A stretch of 64,000 nucleotides of DNA, taken from the NCBI GenBank assembly GCA_031276355.1, contig JAISNC010000028.1, positions 1 through 64,000 of the forward strand. The letters are read 5' to 3'. The notes beneath the pieces are model-generated. The model was not told where the DNA came from. It made no database searches and saw only the letters and a program-made list of their open reading frames with translations. Source of the DNA: Odoribacteraceae bacterium (lineage in GTDB: Bacteria > Bacteroidota > Bacteroidia > Bacteroidales > Marinifilaceae). A program made the position numbers and the translations under genes. This document shows, piece by piece, positions 5,636-62,250 of this stretch; within the stretch, counting starts at the first letter, position 1; each line of letters starts with the position of its first letter.

Positions 5636-5773
5636 GCAGTTCGGGTCGAGAGCGGGGATGCCCGGGCGGGCGCGATCCCTTTCGAGACAACCTCTTATTT
5701 TAAATGTAACATGCGATAATCGAGCATACAAACAACCACACGCTACTATTATCGTAAATTCTCGATCAAATAA

Positions 5774-5805
5774 TTTGGACAATCGATTACGAACCGGTAC
5801 TTTTG
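5774..5805 (+). promoter_or_regulatory. Putative Bacteroidetes-type promoter (TTTG-N20-TACTTTTG)
   Basis: tttg gacaatcgattacgaaccgg tacttttg upstream of CDS at 5871. Confidence 0.7.
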
Positions 5806-5870
5806 TACCGGATTTTACGAAAAACAATCCGAATAGATCATGTATTTGTTACAATTTAAAATTCAACGTC

Positions 5871-6506
5871 ATGAAAACGAGAAAAATTACGATTAAAATG
5901 GGAAGAAGTGTCGCGGCGGCGCTAATCTGCGTGTCATGCTGCACGGTCGTGTTGTCGTCCTGCGACAATGATGATTACCAAGCCCCGCCGCCCAAGGTGT
6001 ACTGGGGATACTTCGAGGGGAAAGTAAACGAGGTGACGAGTTCCCTGAAAAACACGGCCGAGGATCACTATCTTTGGGGTACGCGGAAAATCGAGTATAT
6101 TGAGAAAGAGAATGGCGCAGTGGATTCCGTGTTTGTCTTGTCTGCAACCATCGGCTTGAGCGGGCATAAGATGCAAATGGGAGAGGAAAGTACCATTCTT
6201 TATATCACGCTTCACATGACTCCAGGCGTGCACGACCTCGCGGCGACCGAGTACGGGAACGCATTTACCGGTAAACCCGCTATTACCTTGAAAATGTCAT
6301 ATGCAAATTCATTCCGCGTGTGTTTTTTTACTTATGAACCAAGCAAAGACGCTCCCGTTAGCGTGGAGGTTTTCAACGTGAACACCTCGCCCGATGGCTA
6401 CCCCATTCTTGAAGCGAGAGTAAAGGGGACATTTTATAGTACGACCGATCGGGAAGACTCGATCAATATAGAAGGTAAGTTCGGTATTGAATCATGTATA
6501 TATTAA
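5871..6506 (+). CDS. Hypothetical lipoprotein
   Basis: MKTRKITIKMGRSVAAALICVSCCTVVLSSCDNDDYQAPPP: signal peptide with lipobox; start chosen inside the longer ORF 5658..6506. Confidence 0.8.
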   Translation: MKTRKITIKMGRSVAAALICVSCCTVVLSSCDNDDYQAPPPKVYWGYFEGKVNEVTSSLKNTAEDHYLWGTRKIEYIEKENGAVDSVFVLSATIGLSGHKMQMGEESTILYITLHMTPGVHDLAATEYGNAFTGKPAITLKMSYANSFRVCFFTYEPSKDAPVSVEVFNVNTSPDGYPILEARVKGTFYSTTDREDSINIEGKFGIESCIY

Positions 6507-6531
6507 TTTTAAAATTTAAACCCATTAATGT

Positions 6532-8148
6532 ATGAAAAACAAATTACCACTTATGCTGGCAGCGTTTGCCTGCTTGTTCTCGTGCTCTAGTGAGCACGAG
6601 GGTGTAACTCAAGAGGAAACTTTCATGGAAGTGACCAAATTAAGTACCAGTGAAGCCCAGAAGGCCTTCGCTAAACTGTTGTCGCGGGCGCTACACGAGA
6701 GTGTCGAGATGCGCGCTTTTTTGAAGGAAGAGGCCTTGGCCCAATTTGACAACGACTACGATGTCTTTTACCCGTTCGTAAAAGACAAGATCGTCACTGA
6801 CAACAAGACTTTTAGAGACATTTTATTGTCTTACTGCGAAGATGAAAAAGATCTGGTACAGGTTGAAGAATCTCTCCTTTTATTGAATATTCTTGTCCCG
6901 GACTTGTCCTGGATCGGGGATTTCAGCGCGGAGACCTGGAACGTGTCCGCCCCAGAAGTGGCCGTGATTTGCCGGGACGACAAGTCGAGCACGCTGTACG
7001 AAAACGGCGAGGAAGCGGGATACTTGCCCCTTAACGAGATTCCCGGTTTCCCGTGCTTAGTGGTGAAAAATAACGAAAGGATTCGAGTTAGCAACGCCGC
7101 TACCCGGGCCAGTGAGGCCACTTACGAGTTCAAGAGCAGCGTGTTTGATGCCCGGTTAAATGCCCCGCAAACGAGGGATAGCTATTTTTACGAGAACGTG
7201 GAAACGACGGAAAATACTAACTCCTACGTGTCAGCAAGTACATTAAACGCCATTAACCCGAAAATTATCACCGGGTGGAACATATTTAAAAATGTAAATC
7301 GTTCGTATAGCCGGGAGTACATCTATTATGGAATCGATCCGACGAACACGTCGGGAGAATTGGACAAGAGTATGAAGGAAATTTTACACAAGTTTAAGGT
7401 TAATCCTTTTGGATTTACCACAATTGCCGATCAAAGCGGGAAAGACCCGGCATTACAGAAAACCTCCATAAAGAAAAGATACCTCACGCCGGAAGAAGTC
7501 GTGCAACGGGTATGGACGGGGGGAAATTTCGAGTTTCGTCTTTCTTACTCGCTGGCAAACAGGAATGGCATGTCCATGACCCAGGAGTTAACATTCAATA
7601 TTCCCCCGAAACAGGCATTTTCTATAGAAAGGGTGTACGTTCATCATCAGAACAGGACTATGCTCAGACACTCGGAGAATACGTACACGGTTGATGTCGC
7701 TGACTTGAGAGCGAAATGGATTTACCCGGCAAACCTTCCGGGGTTCCAGAGCGGGTACATTAGTCTCTACACGTGGGATCTTCTTGATAACTCGTACACG
7801 ATGGCTTTACACGTGGAAGAATGGGATAACACTCAAACTGAAGAGAGGGAAGAAAATTTCACGTATGAATACGTGAAGACTGAATCTTTTGAAACTAGCG
7901 TATCAATAAAGAACGGGGAATCCGTGACCACGACCAATAAAACAACAATCGGCAACACAGAAAAAACAACGAAGAACACGAAGATAAAAACCACAACAAC
8001 GCTCGGATCCGACAACTTAGGGACTATTATTTTCAGTTTTTATGATTCGATTATCCTAAATGATTCGTTGAAAGACACGAAGGGGTACGAGATCCGGACG
8101 TATACTACTGGTGCTTTCGAGATGATGATCTTACCCAAGAGACTATAA
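6532..8148 (+). CDS. Hypothetical lipoprotein (Bacteroidales-type, 538 aa)
   Basis: MKNKLPLMLAAFACLFSCSSEHEG lipobox; N-terminal LSRALHESVEMRAFLKEEALAQFDNDYDVFYPFVKDK. Confidence 0.82.
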   Translation: MKNKLPLMLAAFACLFSCSSEHEGVTQEETFMEVTKLSTSEAQKAFAKLLSRALHESVEMRAFLKEEALAQFDNDYDVFYPFVKDKIVTDNKTFRDILLSYCEDEKDLVQVEESLLLLNILVPDLSWIGDFSAETWNVSAPEVAVICRDDKSSTLYENGEEAGYLPLNEIPGFPCLVVKNNERIRVSNAATRASEATYEFKSSVFDARLNAPQTRDSYFYENVETTENTNSYVSASTLNAINPKIITGWNIFKNVNRSYSREYIYYGIDPTNTSGELDKSMKEILHKFKVNPFGFTTIADQSGKDPALQKTSIKKRYLTPEEVVQRVWTGGNFEFRLSYSLANRNGMSMTQELTFNIPPKQAFSIERVYVHHQNRTMLRHSENTYTVDVADLRAKWIYPANLPGFQSGYISLYTWDLLDNSYTMALHVEEWDNTQTEEREENFTYEYVKTESFETSVSIKNGESVTTTNKTTIGNTEKTTKNTKIKTTTTLGSDNLGTIIFSFYDSIILNDSLKDTKGYEIRTYTTGAFEMMILPKRL

Positions 8149-8386: not shown

Positions 8387-10003
8387 TCACGCCGCCGGGG
8401 CGGGGGTCACGGGGTTGTTCTCCTGGATCCCCTTGTTCGTGTTCATCTCGCTCTCGGGGATCAGCCAGAGGAGGATCGGGTCCTCGACCGGCAAGTTGAA
8501 GCGGGCGACGGCCGGGAAGTTCGTCCCGACGCGCTCCAGCGGTTTCTTCAATCGCTTGAGGTCGAAGAGGGAGAAGCCCTCGCCCCACAGCTCGACGCGG
8601 CGCTGCAGCCAGATCTCGTCGCGCAGCTCCCCGGCCGTCGTGGCCGTCGAGGCGAAGGCGGGGTAGCGGCACGTCTTCACGAAATCCTCCAGCACCTTCT
8701 TGCCCCCGGCCAGGTCGCCGCCCATGGCCAGCGCCTCGGCCCGGACGAGGATCATCTCCTCGGCGCGCATGAGGGGGAAGTCGCAGGCGTTCGTCGGGTT
8801 GTTGTAGATGTCCTTGTAGGGGCCGAACTTGACGTTGAGGCAGGAGTCGCGGAAGCCGAACCACTCGGCCGGGCCGTACTCCTGGCCGTTGTAGGTGATC
8901 CTCCAGGCGGTGTCGAGGTGGGGGGAGGAGCGTTTCCCGTCGAGCCACCACCCCTTGCGAACGTCGCCGGCGGGGATGGCGTTCCAGAGGGCGCCGTTGA
9001 TATACCTCCCGGCGTTCGCGGGGGCGTAGCCGTTGCCGGTGAGGCTGCACGCGTGCGAGGGGAAGTTGACGATGCCCGTCTGCACGACCTCGTTGTTCTC
9101 CGAGATGGCGCACCCCCAGATCCACGAGGGGGCGGCGATGTCGTTGAACGAGGGGCGCGAGACCTCCTCGATGGAGTAAGGGACGTGCCCCTCCAGGGCC
9201 TTCGCCGCGTCGTCGGCCGCGTCCTGCCAGCGCTCCATCAGCAGGTAAGCCCGCGCGCGGAGGCCGCGGGCGACGTTGGCGTTGATGACCTCCTTCTTGC
9301 CCCGGCGGTCGAAGCCGTCGAGGAGGGCGATGGCGGAGGTGAGGTCGCCGACGATCTGCTCGAAGAGCCTCTCGAGGGTGACGCGGGGGTTATCGTTCAC
9401 CTCGCGCGGGGTGGCGTCCTGGAGGACGAGGGGGACGGAGAGCGCCCGCTCGTGGCCCTTGTACGTGAACTGGTACACCTGGGCGAGGTGCAGGTAGTCG
9501 AAGGCGCGCGAGGCGAGGGCCTGCCCGAGGTAGGCCTTGAGGGCCTTGTCGGTGGTGGCGGGATCGATGACGGCGATGATGTCGTTGGCCGTCTTGACGC
9601 GCGCGTAGAAGAGGTGCCAGAGGAAGTAGGTGGCCGTCCCGTTGGCCACGCGGTCGGTGAAGAGCATCTGGGAGTTGAACCAGTTGTAGCCGCTGTTCTC
9701 CGAGGGCATGTCCATCCCCGAGGCATCGAACATCAGGCAGGCGGCGGGGTAACCGAAGTCGAAATGGTTATCGCGGCCCGCCCACGAGGAGATGGCGAAC
9801 GCCTGGATCAGGCCGGCGTAGAGGCCGTTGACGTCCGATTGCACCTTGAGGGGGTCGAGGGTGACCAGCTGGTTTTTCCGGTCGCCGGTGACGGCGTCGC
9901 CGGCCGGCTCGAGGGAGAGGTCGCAGCCTCCCCCCGACAGCATCACCGCGGCGATGCAGGCGAAGAGTAACTCGCGTTTTTTCATGATTTTCCTGTTTTT
10001 CAT
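8387..10003 (-). CDS. SusD/RagB family nutrient-uptake lipoprotein
   Basis: MKKRELLFACIAAVMLSGGGCDLSLEP...; C-terminal LMRAEEMILVRAEALAMGG...LRDEIWLQRRVELWGEGFSLFDLKRLKKPL typical of SusD; adjacent to SusC. Confidence 0.95.
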   Translation of the reverse strand: MKNRKIMKKRELLFACIAAVMLSGGGCDLSLEPAGDAVTGDRKNQLVTLDPLKVQSDVNGLYAGLIQAFAISSWAGRDNHFDFGYPAACLMFDASGMDMPSENSGYNWFNSQMLFTDRVANGTATYFLWHLFYARVKTANDIIAVIDPATTDKALKAYLGQALASRAFDYLHLAQVYQFTYKGHERALSVPLVLQDATPREVNDNPRVTLERLFEQIVGDLTSAIALLDGFDRRGKKEVINANVARGLRARAYLLMERWQDAADDAAKALEGHVPYSIEEVSRPSFNDIAAPSWIWGCAISENNEVVQTGIVNFPSHACSLTGNGYAPANAGRYINGALWNAIPAGDVRKGWWLDGKRSSPHLDTAWRITYNGQEYGPAEWFGFRDSCLNVKFGPYKDIYNNPTNACDFPLMRAEEMILVRAEALAMGGDLAGGKKVLEDFVKTCRYPAFASTATTAGELRDEIWLQRRVELWGEGFSLFDLKRLKKPLERVGTNFPAVARFNLPVEDPILLWLIPESEMNTNKGIQENNPVTPAPAA

Positions 10004-10006
10004 GGG

Positions 10007-13000
10007 TTAAAATTTCAAGCTTATGCCTCCCGACAGGGCGCGCACGGGCGAATAGCGGGCGGCGGTGATGGAGGTGTAGGACTGCCTCGGGTCAAGGCCC
10101 CGGCGCCGGGTGAAGAGGGCGAGGTTGTCGGCGGCGCAGTAGACCCGCAGCCCGGCGATGTTATGCCCCTCGAGGAAGGCGGCGGGAAGGGTGTACCCCA
10201 GCGTGACGTTCGTGATGTCGAGGTAGTCGGAACTGACGAGGAAGCGGCTGGAGGAGGAGTTGGCGTAGGTATCGTTGGCGGCCACGCGGGGCACCGGGCT
10301 GTCGGCCCGGAGGGGCGACCAGGAGCGGAGGATATCCTCGTGCCAGTTGTGGCCGGCGCTGGAGGCCGAGCCGGGGTGCATCAACCCCTGGTAGCCGGAG
10401 TCGAAGACGCGCCCGCCGAGCTGGTAGGCGGCCGAGCACGAGAGGTCGAAGCCCCCGCCCGCGAGGGTGAAGCCGAAGCCGCCGTAGAGGCCGGGAAGGA
10501 GGTCGCCGGTGGGGTACTTCACGGCGAGGGGATACTCGGTGGTCGTGACGGGCGTCCCCCCCGGCCCGTCGGCGGCGTGGTAGAGGGCGCGCCCCGCGGC
10601 GTCCACGCCCGCGTAGCGGGGGAGGTAGAGCTGGTACATGGATCGCCCCTCCTGGTAGATGCTCGTCCCGTCGACGAGTTGCCCGCCGAGTTCCGGGGCG
10701 AGGGCGAGGATCTTGTTGTCGAGCATCGTCGCGTTGGCAAAGAGGTCGAGGCGCGCGGGGCCGGCGGCGAAAAGGGCGGAGTTCAGCCCGATCTCGAGGC
10801 CGCTGTTGGAGACCTTGCCGATGTTCGAGGGGAAGACGGCGTAGCCGCCGGAGGGGGAGACGGGGCGGTAGTAGAGCATGTCGTCGGTGACGCGCGAGAA
10901 GTACTCGACCGTCCCGGCCAGCTTGCCGCCCCAGAACGAGAAGTCGACCCCGGCGTTGAAGGAGCGGGAGGTCTCCCAGGTGATCTCCTTGTTCCCCTTG
11001 TAGGCAAGGGCGAGGGCGAAGTCGCCGTTGTTCTCGGCGAGGGTGTACTGGTCGCGGTCGGGGTAGTAATTGGTGGAGCCGTCCTGGTAGAGGAGGTCAT
11101 CGTTCCCCTGGATGCCGTAGCTGGCCTTGATTTTCAGGAGATCGATCCAGGAGCGATCGGCCAGGAAAGGCTCCTTGGAGATGACCCAGGCGGCGCCCGC
11201 GCTGCCGAAGTTACCCCAGCGGCGGCTCTTGTCGAAGCGCGAGGAGGCGTCGCGGCGGTAAGAGAGGCTGAAGACGTACGCGTGATCCAGCTCGTATCGC
11301 GCGCGGCCGAACCACCCCTCGGTCTTGTAGCGGTTCGTGCTGGAGGCGGCCGCGGGGTTCAGGATCGCGTTGTTGATCTCGACGACGCCCGGGTCGTAGA
11401 GCTTCTCCTTGTTCGCGCGCAGGGAACTCGCGCGCAGGGAGTAATACTCGTGGCCCAGGAGGAGGTCGACGGCGTGGCGGTCGCCGAACGCGCGCGCGTA
11501 GGCGAGCAGTTGCTGGTGGTTGACGGAGGCCTCGCGGTCGTGCCCGACGTAGACGATGCCGCCGACCTTGGAGTACTGGCCGTAGTGGGTGTTGTAGAGG
11601 CGGGTATAGCGGGTGTTATCGATGTCCGCCCCGAAGTTATAGGTGAAGTTTAGCCCCTCGGCCAGCTCGACGGTGGCGTACCAGCGACCGCCGAAGATGT
11701 CGCTCGTGTAGTCACGCTTGTCCAGCTGGGCGAGGGAGGCGGGGTTAGAACCGCTCATGAAGGTGCGCTTGAAGTTGCCGGTGGTCTGGTCGCCGAAATC
11801 GTAGACGGTAAGCCCGCGGCCGTCTTTCAGGATCGCCCCGGTGCTGTCCCGGGCGTAGAGCGGGTAGACGGGAGCGATGTTGTTGGCCAGGTAGAAGAGG
11901 TTGACGGAACTCCCGCTGGAGGTCTGGCCGGCGGGGTATTGCATGTCGTAGCGGGTGAAGGAGAGTTTACTCCCCACCTTGAGCCAACGCTTGGCCTGGT
12001 AGTCGACATTGGCGCGGGAGGTGTACCGCGTGAACCCCGACCCGGCCATGATGCCGGAATCGTCGAGATAACCGAGCGAGAGGTAGTAGTTGAGGTTGTC
12101 GGTCACGCCCGACACGGAGAGGTTATACTCCTGGCGAAGATTGCCCTTGTCGAACAACTCCTCGTACCAGTCATCGGGGCGATAGGTGTACGTCCCGTCG
12201 GTGTAGCCGAGCGTCGCGTTCCGGTTGATCTTCCCGTCCGTGTCGAAAAGCTCTTCCCCGGCGGGCAGGGTGTAGATCTGGTAACCGATCCCGCCGTCAT
12301 TGTTCGTCGCGATGCCGGCAAGCACGGCCGCGTGGGCCTCGGCGGGGTTTTTGGAAACCGCGAAACTGTTGTACATGGCCTCGTAGACCTTTTCGAGGTA
12401 AGTGGCCGGGTCTTTCAGCACCCGGTAGTTGGGCACGGCGCGGGAGTTATTGCCCCAACGCGCGTCCACGGTAACAAGCGCGTCGCGCGTCTTGGCTTTC
12501 TTGGTGGTCACCAGGATGACACCGTTCGCCCCGCGGGCGCCGTAGAGCGCGTTCGAGGCGGCGTCTTTCAGGACGGTCACCGTCTCGATGTCGGCGTTAT
12601 TGATGGCGGCCACGTCCCCGTCGTACGGCACCCCGTCGACCACGTACAAGGGCGCGTTACCGGCCGACATGGAACCGGTCCCCCGGATACGAACGGTGGA
12701 GGTGACGCCCGGTTGACCGTCCACCGCGCGCACCTGCACGCCGGCCACCTGCCCCGACAGGATGCCGGTGACGTTGGTCGCCTGGCGCCGCGACAGCGCC
12801 TCGTCCTTGATCGTGGCGATGGACCCCGTGAAGGACTCCTTCTTGGCCGTGCCGTACGCCACGACGATGACCTCGTCGATCTGCTTGATCTCTTCCTCCA
12901 GTGTCACGTCGACGCGCCGCCGGTTGCCGACGGCGATCTCCTGGCTCTTGAAGCCGATGAACGAGAACTGTAACACGGCATCGGGCGTGACGGTGATCGT

Positions 13001-13177
13001 GTACTCGCCGCGCGTGTCAGTGATGACGCCTCGTCGCGTGCCTTGTTGAAGGATGGTAACGCCGGGTAGCGCGCCACCGTCCGCGGATGTAACTTTTCCC
13101 GATACTTGCAGTTCCTGGGCCCCGGCTGGAACGGAGAGCAACCAGAACGCGAGCATGTAAATCAATCTTTTTTTCAT
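10007..13177 (-). CDS. SusC/RagA family TonB-linked outer membrane protein
   Basis: MKKRLIYMLAFWLLSVPAGAQELQVSGKVTSADGGALPGVTILQQGTRRGVITDTRGEYTI...DEVIVVAYGTAKKESFTGSIATI...VLKDAASNALYGARGANGVILVTTKKA. Confidence 0.96.
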   Translation of the reverse strand: MKKRLIYMLAFWLLSVPAGAQELQVSGKVTSADGGALPGVTILQQGTRRGVITDTRGEYTITVTPDAVLQFSFIGFKSQEIAVGNRRRVDVTLEEEIKQIDEVIVVAYGTAKKESFTGSIATIKDEALSRRQATNVTGILSGQVAGVQVRAVDGQPGVTSTVRIRGTGSMSAGNAPLYVVDGVPYDGDVAAINNADIETVTVLKDAASNALYGARGANGVILVTTKKAKTRDALVTVDARWGNNSRAVPNYRVLKDPATYLEKVYEAMYNSFAVSKNPAEAHAAVLAGIATNNDGGIGYQIYTLPAGEELFDTDGKINRNATLGYTDGTYTYRPDDWYEELFDKGNLRQEYNLSVSGVTDNLNYYLSLGYLDDSGIMAGSGFTRYTSRANVDYQAKRWLKVGSKLSFTRYDMQYPAGQTSSGSSVNLFYLANNIAPVYPLYARDSTGAILKDGRGLTVYDFGDQTTGNFKRTFMSGSNPASLAQLDKRDYTSDIFGGRWYATVELAEGLNFTYNFGADIDNTRYTRLYNTHYGQYSKVGGIVYVGHDREASVNHQQLLAYARAFGDRHAVDLLLGHEYYSLRASSLRANKEKLYDPGVVEINNAILNPAAASSTNRYKTEGWFGRARYELDHAYVFSLSYRRDASSRFDKSRRWGNFGSAGAAWVISKEPFLADRSWIDLLKIKASYGIQGNDDLLYQDGSTNYYPDRDQYTLAENNGDFALALAYKGNKEITWETSRSFNAGVDFSFWGGKLAGTVEYFSRVTDDMLYYRPVSPSGGYAVFPSNIGKVSNSGLEIGLNSALFAAGPARLDLFANATMLDNKILALAPELGGQLVDGTSIYQEGRSMYQLYLPRYAGVDAAGRALYHAADGPGGTPVTTTEYPLAVKYPTGDLLPGLYGGFGFTLAGGGFDLSCSAAYQLGGRVFDSGYQGLMHPGSASSAGHNWHEDILRSWSPLRADSPVPRVAANDTYANSSSSRFLVSSDYLDITNVTLGYTLPAAFLEGHNIAGLRVYCAADNLALFTRRRGLDPRQSYTSITAARYSPVRALSGGISLKF

Positions 13178-13426
13178 ACTTGTAAGTTTTCTTGTTAACA
13201 TAAATAGGAGATACGAATAGCAGATCCCGGATCACAAACGCCATCTGCATCCAGGCCACGAAAGCGCCGCGCTTCCCGCGCCGGCTCGTGCCGCCGGACG
13301 GGTCGCCCCCATCTGCCCGATAAGGGCGGGTAATTCTTGAAAATCAACTGTTCCATAAATCGATTATTTAATTTGACCACCCGTTCCCTCGCGAGAGAGA
13401 ACGCTAAAATTCTCGCGTGTTTATCG

Positions 13427-13708
13427 TTTACAGGAGGGCCGGCAACGGCGATCGCGTTGCCGTATCTCCTCTCACCTCATCGAGAAAGGGCGCGTTCGGG
13501 ATAGAATGGGCAAAGGATAGTCCGATTTTTCAACTACCACGCGTAACGGGAAGTCTATTTTTACAGGAGTCCCGGCAACAGGGATCGAAGCGAAACAGAG
13601 CGGTAGGGATGAGCGATCGCGTTGTCGTATCTCCTCTCACCTCATCGAGAATCAGTCGTTTTAGGGTAGAATAAATAGATGGTAGTTCGATTTTTCAAAC
13701 AGCACACA
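13427..13708. repeat. Two-copy direct repeat of a potentially structured element (copies about 13427-13543 and 13558-13708)
   Basis: Shared tttacaggag..ccggcaac, gcgatcgcgttg(c/t)cgtatctcctctcacctcatcgaga and gttcgatttttcaa-like blocks. Confidence 0.75.
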
Positions 13709-13719
13709 CGATGATTTGA

Positions 13720-13750
13720 CAAATGTATGCATAGTTCTTGTCAATTCCAA
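13720..13750 (-). promoter_or_regulatory. Putative promoter upstream of susC (minus strand TTG-N20-TACATTTG)
   Basis: Plus strand caaatgta (13720-13727) and caa (13748-13750), 20-nt spacer; implies a leader of about 530 nt. Confidence 0.45.
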
Positions 13751-14040
13751 CATGTCAGGCCCATTATTTTTACAGTTTTATCGCTGGATAACGCATAATA
13801 CGCTTTAAAACACGATTTTTGAACAAGCGGGATCCCTATTCAACCAACCTATCGCGAGGAAAAACGATATGGGCCATAAACTCCTCCCCGCGACAATAAA
13901 CACGAGCGCACGAGGTGGCTGATTGGATATGTCTATTGGCTACCGAGGGTGTGTTGTTTTTCGGATTAGGTGAAAACGAGGTTTAGGAGCGATCGGTTTT
14001 GAATCCAGGAATCGTCGAACGGATGGGCCGTGATGTAAGA

Positions 14041-14122
14041 GGCTGTCTCGAAAGGGAGGTGCGCACGGGCATCCCGTCAGGGATGCGAGAAAACGCCCGA
14101 AAGTTGACTTTTGAGACAGTCC
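14041..14122. repeat. MITE-like element with imperfect terminal inverted repeats
   Basis: ggctgtctcgaaag ... cttttgagacagtcc with internal hairpin gcatcccgtcagggatgc. Confidence 0.65.
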
Positions 14123-14150
14123 CGGATGCAATCGCCCGGTGGTAGCCCAA

Positions 14151-14184
14151 AAAAAATCGTCCCGGTTACCCGGGACGATTTTTT
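14151..14184 (-). terminator. Strong (bidirectional) terminator after rplQ
   Basis: aaaaaatcgtcccgg-ttac-ccgggacgatttttt. Confidence 0.85.
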
Positions 14185-14201: not shown

Positions 14202-14783
14202 TTAGGCTTGTGGATCTTCGGCCTTCGGGGCCTCGTCCTCCACCACGGGAGGCTCTTCTGCCACCGCGATCTCTCCCGTCGCCTCCAAGTTCTTTTCCAC
14301 GATCTCCACGGCCTCTTCCACAATAGCCTGAGCATCGGCCGCCGTCATGGGTTTCTCTTTCTTGGAAGAGCGACGCCGGCGGGCCGGGGCCTTCTTCTCC
14401 GCCTTCACCTCGGTGTAAGTGGTATTGTAATCCACCAACTCGATGATACACCTGTCCGCGTTATCCCCGATACGCGTGCCGCTCAATTTCAAGATCCGGG
14501 TATAACCGCCGGGACGATTAGCCACCTTTTGTGACACCTCGTTAAACAACTCGGAGATCACCTGTTTCTGGCGAAGGTACGCGAAGGTAATCCGGCGCGA
14601 GTGCGTCGAATCCTCCTTGCACTTGGTGATCAACGGCTCCACGTACACCCGCAACGCCTTGGCCTTGGCCACCGTGGTTTCGATCCTCTTGTGGAGGATC
14701 AACGAGCAAGCCATGTTCGCGAGCATCGCCTTTCTATGGGAGCTTGTCCTGCCTAAATGGTTAAATTTCTTATTATGTCTCAT
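14202..14783 (-). CDS. rplQ: 50S ribosomal protein L17 with acidic/Ala-rich C-terminal extension
   Basis: [45 protein letters not shown]. Confidence 0.98.
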
Positions 14784-62069: not shown

Positions 62070-62250
62070 GGCTGTCTCGAAAGCCAGGGGTCCATCACGA
62101 GTACACAGATCGAAGCAATCCATTGATTTACTGTCACTCGGATCGCCTCCCGCTCGTTCCTGGCAGTGCGCGATGACGAAAACCGCAGGTTCGCAATGAC
62201 GTTCAGGTGTAGGGGCGAAAAATCTTTCGCCCCCGCGTCGTTCTCGCTCT
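62070..62250. repeat. Degenerate dispersed intergenic repeat plus GGGGCGAAA hairpin
   Basis: ggctgtctcgaaagcc...gaagcaatccattgattt...gcgatgacgaaaaccgcaggttcgcaatgacgttca...ggggcgaaaaatctttcgcccc. Confidence 0.55.

Follow-up and report, generated by a model that had tools for sequence, protein, structure and literature searches.

What is the role, if any, of a duplicated sequence that lies upstream of a susC/susD gene pair in an Odoribacteraceae bacterium? The locus is found in a stretch of 64,000 nucleotides (the window) at the start of contig JAISNC010000028.1, which belongs to a draft genome (GCA_031276355.1) of 2.8 Mb and 84% completeness. A previous sequence-only reading of this DNA described a duplicated, potentially structured element in the putative leader of the susCD operon and considered it to fit a tandem riboswitch or another cis-regulatory RNA, while allowing for a function at the DNA level. 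The interpretation favoured here, held tentatively and short of being probable, is a cis-acting susCD leader RNA in which a long-range helix, formed near the start of translation, closes the structure. What is presented is a candidate long 5′ leader of susC at one locus, with a testable predicted pairing, and not an established element.

The presence of two diverged copies with shared blocks was borne out, well above chance, by direct-repeat search and gapped alignment (Table 1). Two direct repeats were detected, 13448-13540 / 13613-13705 (93 nt, 76%, spacing 165) and 13427-13454 / 13560-13587 (28 nt, 86%, spacing 133), and the two spacings do not share one reading frame. With up to three mismatches allowed, the window contains two occurrences of the 18-mer GAGGTGAGAGGAGATACG, compared with 0.04 expected, and the longest identical run between the copies is 26 (permutation p = 0.005). 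Conservation between the copies is not uniform: a core of the form TTCTCGATGAGGTGAGAGGAGATACG(A/G)CAACGCGATCGC contains a single difference in its 39 positions, whereas 21 of the 54 adjoining positions are mismatched (Fisher p = 3.5e-5). Moreover, the gapped alignment revealed a 3′ block, (T/C)GTTGCCGG..CTCCTGTAAA, that is retained in both copies beyond a length difference of ~35 nt. Either the core and the 3′ block are under selection, or gene conversion has made part of the module uniform again.

For comparison, the closest susC orthologs in named genomes were identified in two Odoribacteraceae metagenome bins (G001 and G004) with 71-72% protein identity; the only further match in the contig search of these genomes was a distant Cyclobacterium protein. 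The names of the two bins suggest a termite-gut origin, for which a literature search gave no confirmation. Neither ortholog carries the duplication; a module of 130-150 nt at the 5′ end of the leader has been tandemly duplicated in the lineage of the window.

The duplicated region is preceded by rplQ (14202-14783, minus strand) with its terminator hairpin at 14151-14184 and followed by susC and susD. The promoter match proposed previously, a TTG-N20 arrangement at 13720-13750, is present, with TTG at 13750-13748 and TACATTTG at 13727-13720, the latter being the sole TAnnTTTG on either strand of 13150-13800; the Bacteroides promoter consensus consists of TAnnTTTG at -7 and TTTG near -33 (PMC7366714). 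A similar -7 box precedes both orthologous susC genes (CATACATTCG in G001, CATACTTTCG in G004), and by inspection a spacer of 23 nt separates the box from a GAAAA-type motif in all three leaders (GAAAAATCG / GAATTTCCG / GAAAATTCCG). Since promoter box and spacing are kept in two orthologs, the duplicated module is probably transcribed. The promoter match is on the strand of the element and precedes it, and a terminator scan gave no terminator-like site on the minus strand from there to susC. The start codon of susC is probably the ATG at 13177 rather than position 13201 of the list of open reading frames (ORFs), because both orthologs begin with MKK; the MKK N terminus is common to all three proteins, and the start context is ACTTACAAGTATGAAAAA in the window and AACTACAAGTATGAAAAA in G001. 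The earlier placement of both copies inside a leader of ~530 nt is probably right in substance, the likely length being ~540 nt with the start codon at 13177: the duplicated region likely belongs to a 5′ leader of this length on the susCD mRNA, as judged from the position of the promoter. The leader of G001 would be of similar length (544 nt) and that of G004 would have 306 nt. Compared with the 5′ untranslated regions (5′-UTRs) of Bacteroides thetaiotaomicron, which have a median length of 32 nt and exceed 100 nt in 13.5% of cases (PMC7366714), these leaders would be unusually long.

A feature that the sequence-only reading did not contain is a reverse-complement copy of part of the core at 13206-13216, termed site C. 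The sequence AGGAGATACG occurs three times in the window, compared with 0.08 expected occurrences, once in each core and a third time, in reverse orientation, at 13206-13215. The perfect match of 11 bp between core B and site C is the longest and strongest long-range complement of the leader. When the whole leader was shuffled, 7 of 300 sequences contained a complement of at least this length (5 of 300 when the test was repeated), one of 5000 shuffles reached the match when the core was compared with the last 60 nt before the start codon, and p = 0.005 was obtained for complementarity between the rest of the leader and the last 80 nt. Among 146 stretches upstream of other susC genes in the same genome, one reaches 11 bp. 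The motif AGGAGATACGR is found eight times in the 2.8-Mb genome, three times at this locus and five times inside ORFs. In the partition function of the leader, the pairing of core B with site C and the local stem of copy A both have values of ~0.99.

Based on these data the following mechanism is proposed. Both copies have retained, within the core, the sequence AGGAGATACG, which would be able to pair with TCGTATCTCCT just before the susC start, so that the leader may fold into a large loop closed by the core-site C helix. Copy B would be the default partner of site C, because most of the core of copy A is predicted to be sequestered in the local hairpin of that copy. How easily ribosomes reach the susC start region could be set, and possibly switched, by this fold, for example if the AT-rich region before the start codon were occluded or insulated by it. 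That the helix forms in cells and acts on translation, and in which direction, is what we infer from the predicted pairing. In the orthologous leader of G001 a perfect helix of 12 bp (L011, 1020-1031 with 1383-1394) connects the 5′ part with a site 63-74 nt before the start (p = 0.004), and thus both long leaders (2/2) close on themselves near the start, while the short one does not. An extended version, according to which the duplicated 5′ module works as a 'small RNA' in cis, with two seeds competing between local hairpins and the long-range helix and with relatives keeping the helix by different sequences, would make the locus an unrecognised susC leader switch, but we regard it as a long shot.

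Several observations weigh against a long-range helix. The complement tests were chosen after the match had been seen, and their p-values are thus optimistic and suggestive only. The G001 helix is made of segments that are not homologous to those of the window, and G004 with its leader of 306 nt has no long-range helix (p = 0.64); hence the helix is not conserved as such and offers no covariation, and just three orthologous leaders (window, G001 and G004) were there to compare. Furthermore, the retained core of 39 nt goes far beyond the needs of an 11-nt seed, site C is situated at the edge of the zone in which pairing should matter, and shuffled versions of the whole leader fold almost as well as the leader itself (z = -1.5).

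The local folding of the copies was considered separately. The short hairpin of copy A is well formed (56-nt fold, -23.0 kcal/mol, z = -3.0), while the z-scores for folding of the whole copies are -1.0 for A and +0.6 for B, the latter being no better than chance. In copy B the equivalent of the A hairpin contains ~35 nt of extra loop and is not the predicted fold; forcing the stem costs ~2 kcal/mol. The shared stems had been taken previously to suggest that the RNA structure is under selection. The pairings AGGAG/CTCCT and CAAC/GTTG are indeed available in both copies, but the alignment of A and B contains no compensatory change, and the sole core difference, G in A to A in B, disrupts a stem pair in copy B. 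The two orthologous leaders are too diverged to be aligned reliably with that of the window for a comparison of compensatory changes. With the weak folding of the whole copies, selection on local stems is not upheld as a conclusion; the fact that both arms are conserved but the loop is not stays compatible with it.

Two other explanations are serious rivals of the leader RNA. The duplication may be functionless, having occurred in a permissive intergenic region, with the identity of the cores due to partial gene conversion or chance. The orthologs without duplication and the lack of dispersed relatives are in line with this, as are the missing compensatory changes and the poor folding of both copy B and the leader as a whole. 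The clustering of mismatches is difficult to reconcile with it, though gene conversion could account for that, and the further conserved 3′ block and the complementarity of site C also speak for more than a neutral duplication; overall, it is somewhat unlikely. In the other rival, to which we give a still lower but appreciable probability, the elements are DNA operators, to which a transcription factor would bind in order to control the susC promoter: the two cores would be direct sites, and site C a third one, inverted and shorter. Direct repeats with a kept core and diverging flanks have the look of operator arrays, the inverted third AGGAGATACG is explained equally well by a binding site and by RNA pairing, and the core contains the palindrome GCGATCGC. 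However, all sites are located downstream of the conserved promoter, ~70 to 510 bp into the transcribed region, the core was not found before the orthologous or other susC genes, and among the scanned neighbours no regulator gene was found.

Less is to be said for explanations that involve additional transcripts or peptides. Small upstream ORFs, whose translation by ribosomes on the leader would open the structures or keep them closed, are improbable. Each core holds ATG-AGG-TGA (Met-Arg-stop), and CGATG is similarly placed in all three leaders, where it opens Met-Arg-stop twice in the window, 13 codons in G004 and 19 codons in G001; in B. thetaiotaomicron, long 5′-UTRs have been reported to contain short ORFs (PMC7366714). 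Nevertheless, the peptides are not conserved, ATG is common by chance, and by inspection the ORF of 53 codons in the window has no counterpart in the orthologs. Most improbable of all is an antisense RNA of the DonS kind, which would be transcribed from the plus strand, overlap the susC leader and own the repeats. In Bacteroides, susC genes with DonS-like RNAs on the opposite strand are known (PMC7366714), and a weak terminator-like site is present on the plus strand at 13507-13524, but terminator-like sites are not more frequent than in shuffles (1 vs 1.6 expected), no TAnnTTTG occurs on the plus strand of 13150-13800, and the conserved promoter points the opposite way.

In order to find relatives of the element, several sequence collections were searched. 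An Rfam scan of the whole window returned one tRNA only, and the leader element matches no family. No match was found in 39 related genomes or in phages, plasmids and viral contigs, and 295 genomes of the order yielded only scattered matches to a 21-mer with 2-3 mismatches. In the genus, the inspected matches to GAAWWWYCGRACTAC belong to a susC leader only in the window and in G004; G002 has an exact match, but within a susC-like coding sequence. By inspection, the upstream regions of more distant susC homologs (39-60% identity) have no recognisable similarity, and no motif is shared by the scanned upstream regions of 50 susC-like loci of the same genome. The previous suggestion of a tandem riboswitch is therefore not supported, there being no Rfam match, no homologous copy anywhere searched and no duplication in the orthologs. 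A dispersed repeat or insertion sequence remnant is ruled out by the restriction of the element to one locus in its own genome; an insertion sequence or integration remnant, named beforehand as what would speak against a regulatory RNA, was searched for and not found.

Table 1. Features of the susCD locus (positions in the window).
Feature	Position	Strand	Remark
susD	8387..10003	-	downstream of susC
susC	10007..13177	-	TonB-dependent transporter, CarbopepD_reg_2 + Plug domains; start codon set from orthologs
Possible upstream ORF, 53 aa	13195..13356	-	3′ end covers site C; AT-rich stretch before ATG; ends 17 nt before susC start
Site C, TCGTATCTCCT	13206..13216	-	29-39 nt upstream of susC start codon; complementary to both cores
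Copy A of duplicated leader module	13425..13543	-	direct-repeat search and gapped alignment
Local hairpin of copy A (predicted)	13427..13470	-	AGGAG...CTCCT outer, CGGCAACG/CGTTGCCG inner
Conserved 39-nt core, copy A	13448..13486	-	alignment with core B
Seed-like AGGAGATACG(G) in core A	13460..13470	-	10-bp perfect complement of site C plus one G-U
Copy B of duplicated leader module	13556..13708	-	direct-repeat search and gapped alignment
Conserved 39-nt core, copy B (TTCTCGATGAGGTGAGAGGAGATACGACAACGCGATCGC)	13613..13651	-	1 mismatch to core A
Seed-like AGGAGATACGA in core B	13625..13635	-	11-bp perfect complement of site C
Promoter, Bacteroidota type, TTG-N20-TACATTTG (putative)	13720..13750	-	transcription start placed just downstream

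Further observations were made in the surroundings of the locus. Two genes on the plus strand (5658-8148) are convergent to susCD, one with a DUF5025 domain and the other, of 538 aa, without Pfam match; an ORF of 522 aa behind susD at the G004 ortholog locus is unrelated to the latter. A segment of ~80 bp at 14041-14124 with the ends GGGACTGTCTCAAAAGT...CTTTCGAGACAGCC resembles a small inverted-repeat element. The end motif CTTTCGAGACAGCC is also present at 62070-62083 and 5679-5692, and with one mismatch allowed it occurs 109 times genome-wide, compared with one occurrence of the reversed control. Upstream of the G001 leader (L011:180-480 and 590-830), many short imperfect tandem repeats of the CACGAGAAGCGCGTGCTTTT type and copies of GGTGGCTGAGCTTGTCGAAGCC were noticed. 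The genome of the window possesses about 50 further susC-like loci (92 matches in all), a large number for 2.8 Mb, and a tandem array of AGAGCCTCGCAAGGTTCTAAA-like units lies upstream of another susC gene at a contig end (L069, G000:C36).

The proposed leader RNA can be likened, by description, to known systems. In B. thetaiotaomicron, FopS RNAs block translation near the susC mRNA start, which is relieved by RbpB (PMC11697453). Paralogous copies of a pairing segment are common to both cases; however, FopS RNAs are separate, trans-acting molecules of ~65-70 nt, whereas the complement described here resides on the susC leader itself, with a target 29-39 nt upstream of the start codon, and the pairing is predicted from sequence. 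The cis-antisense RNAs of the DonS type (PMC7366714) share RNA control at the susC 5′ end and differ in deriving from the opposite strand, for which the window has no promoter motif in 13150-13800. The Roc leader of B. thetaiotaomicron (PMC10294740) is a further case of a Bacteroides leader that determines how much protein is made from its mRNA, in the context of carbohydrate regulation, although it has 54 nt and belongs to a different gene. With translational or tandem riboswitches the element has in common the 5′ leader position, a duplicated module and possible alternative pairings near the start codon; it differs from them in lacking an Rfam class, a conserved aptamer or a recognised ligand-linked gene, and in the orthologs not being duplicated.

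Post-transcriptional control of susC has been shown only recently, via trans-acting RNAs in Bacteroides (PMC11697453). If the long-range helix is true, susC would be subject to this type of control in cis, by means of a leader that base-pairs with the start region of its own gene, and in a bacterium other than the human-gut models.
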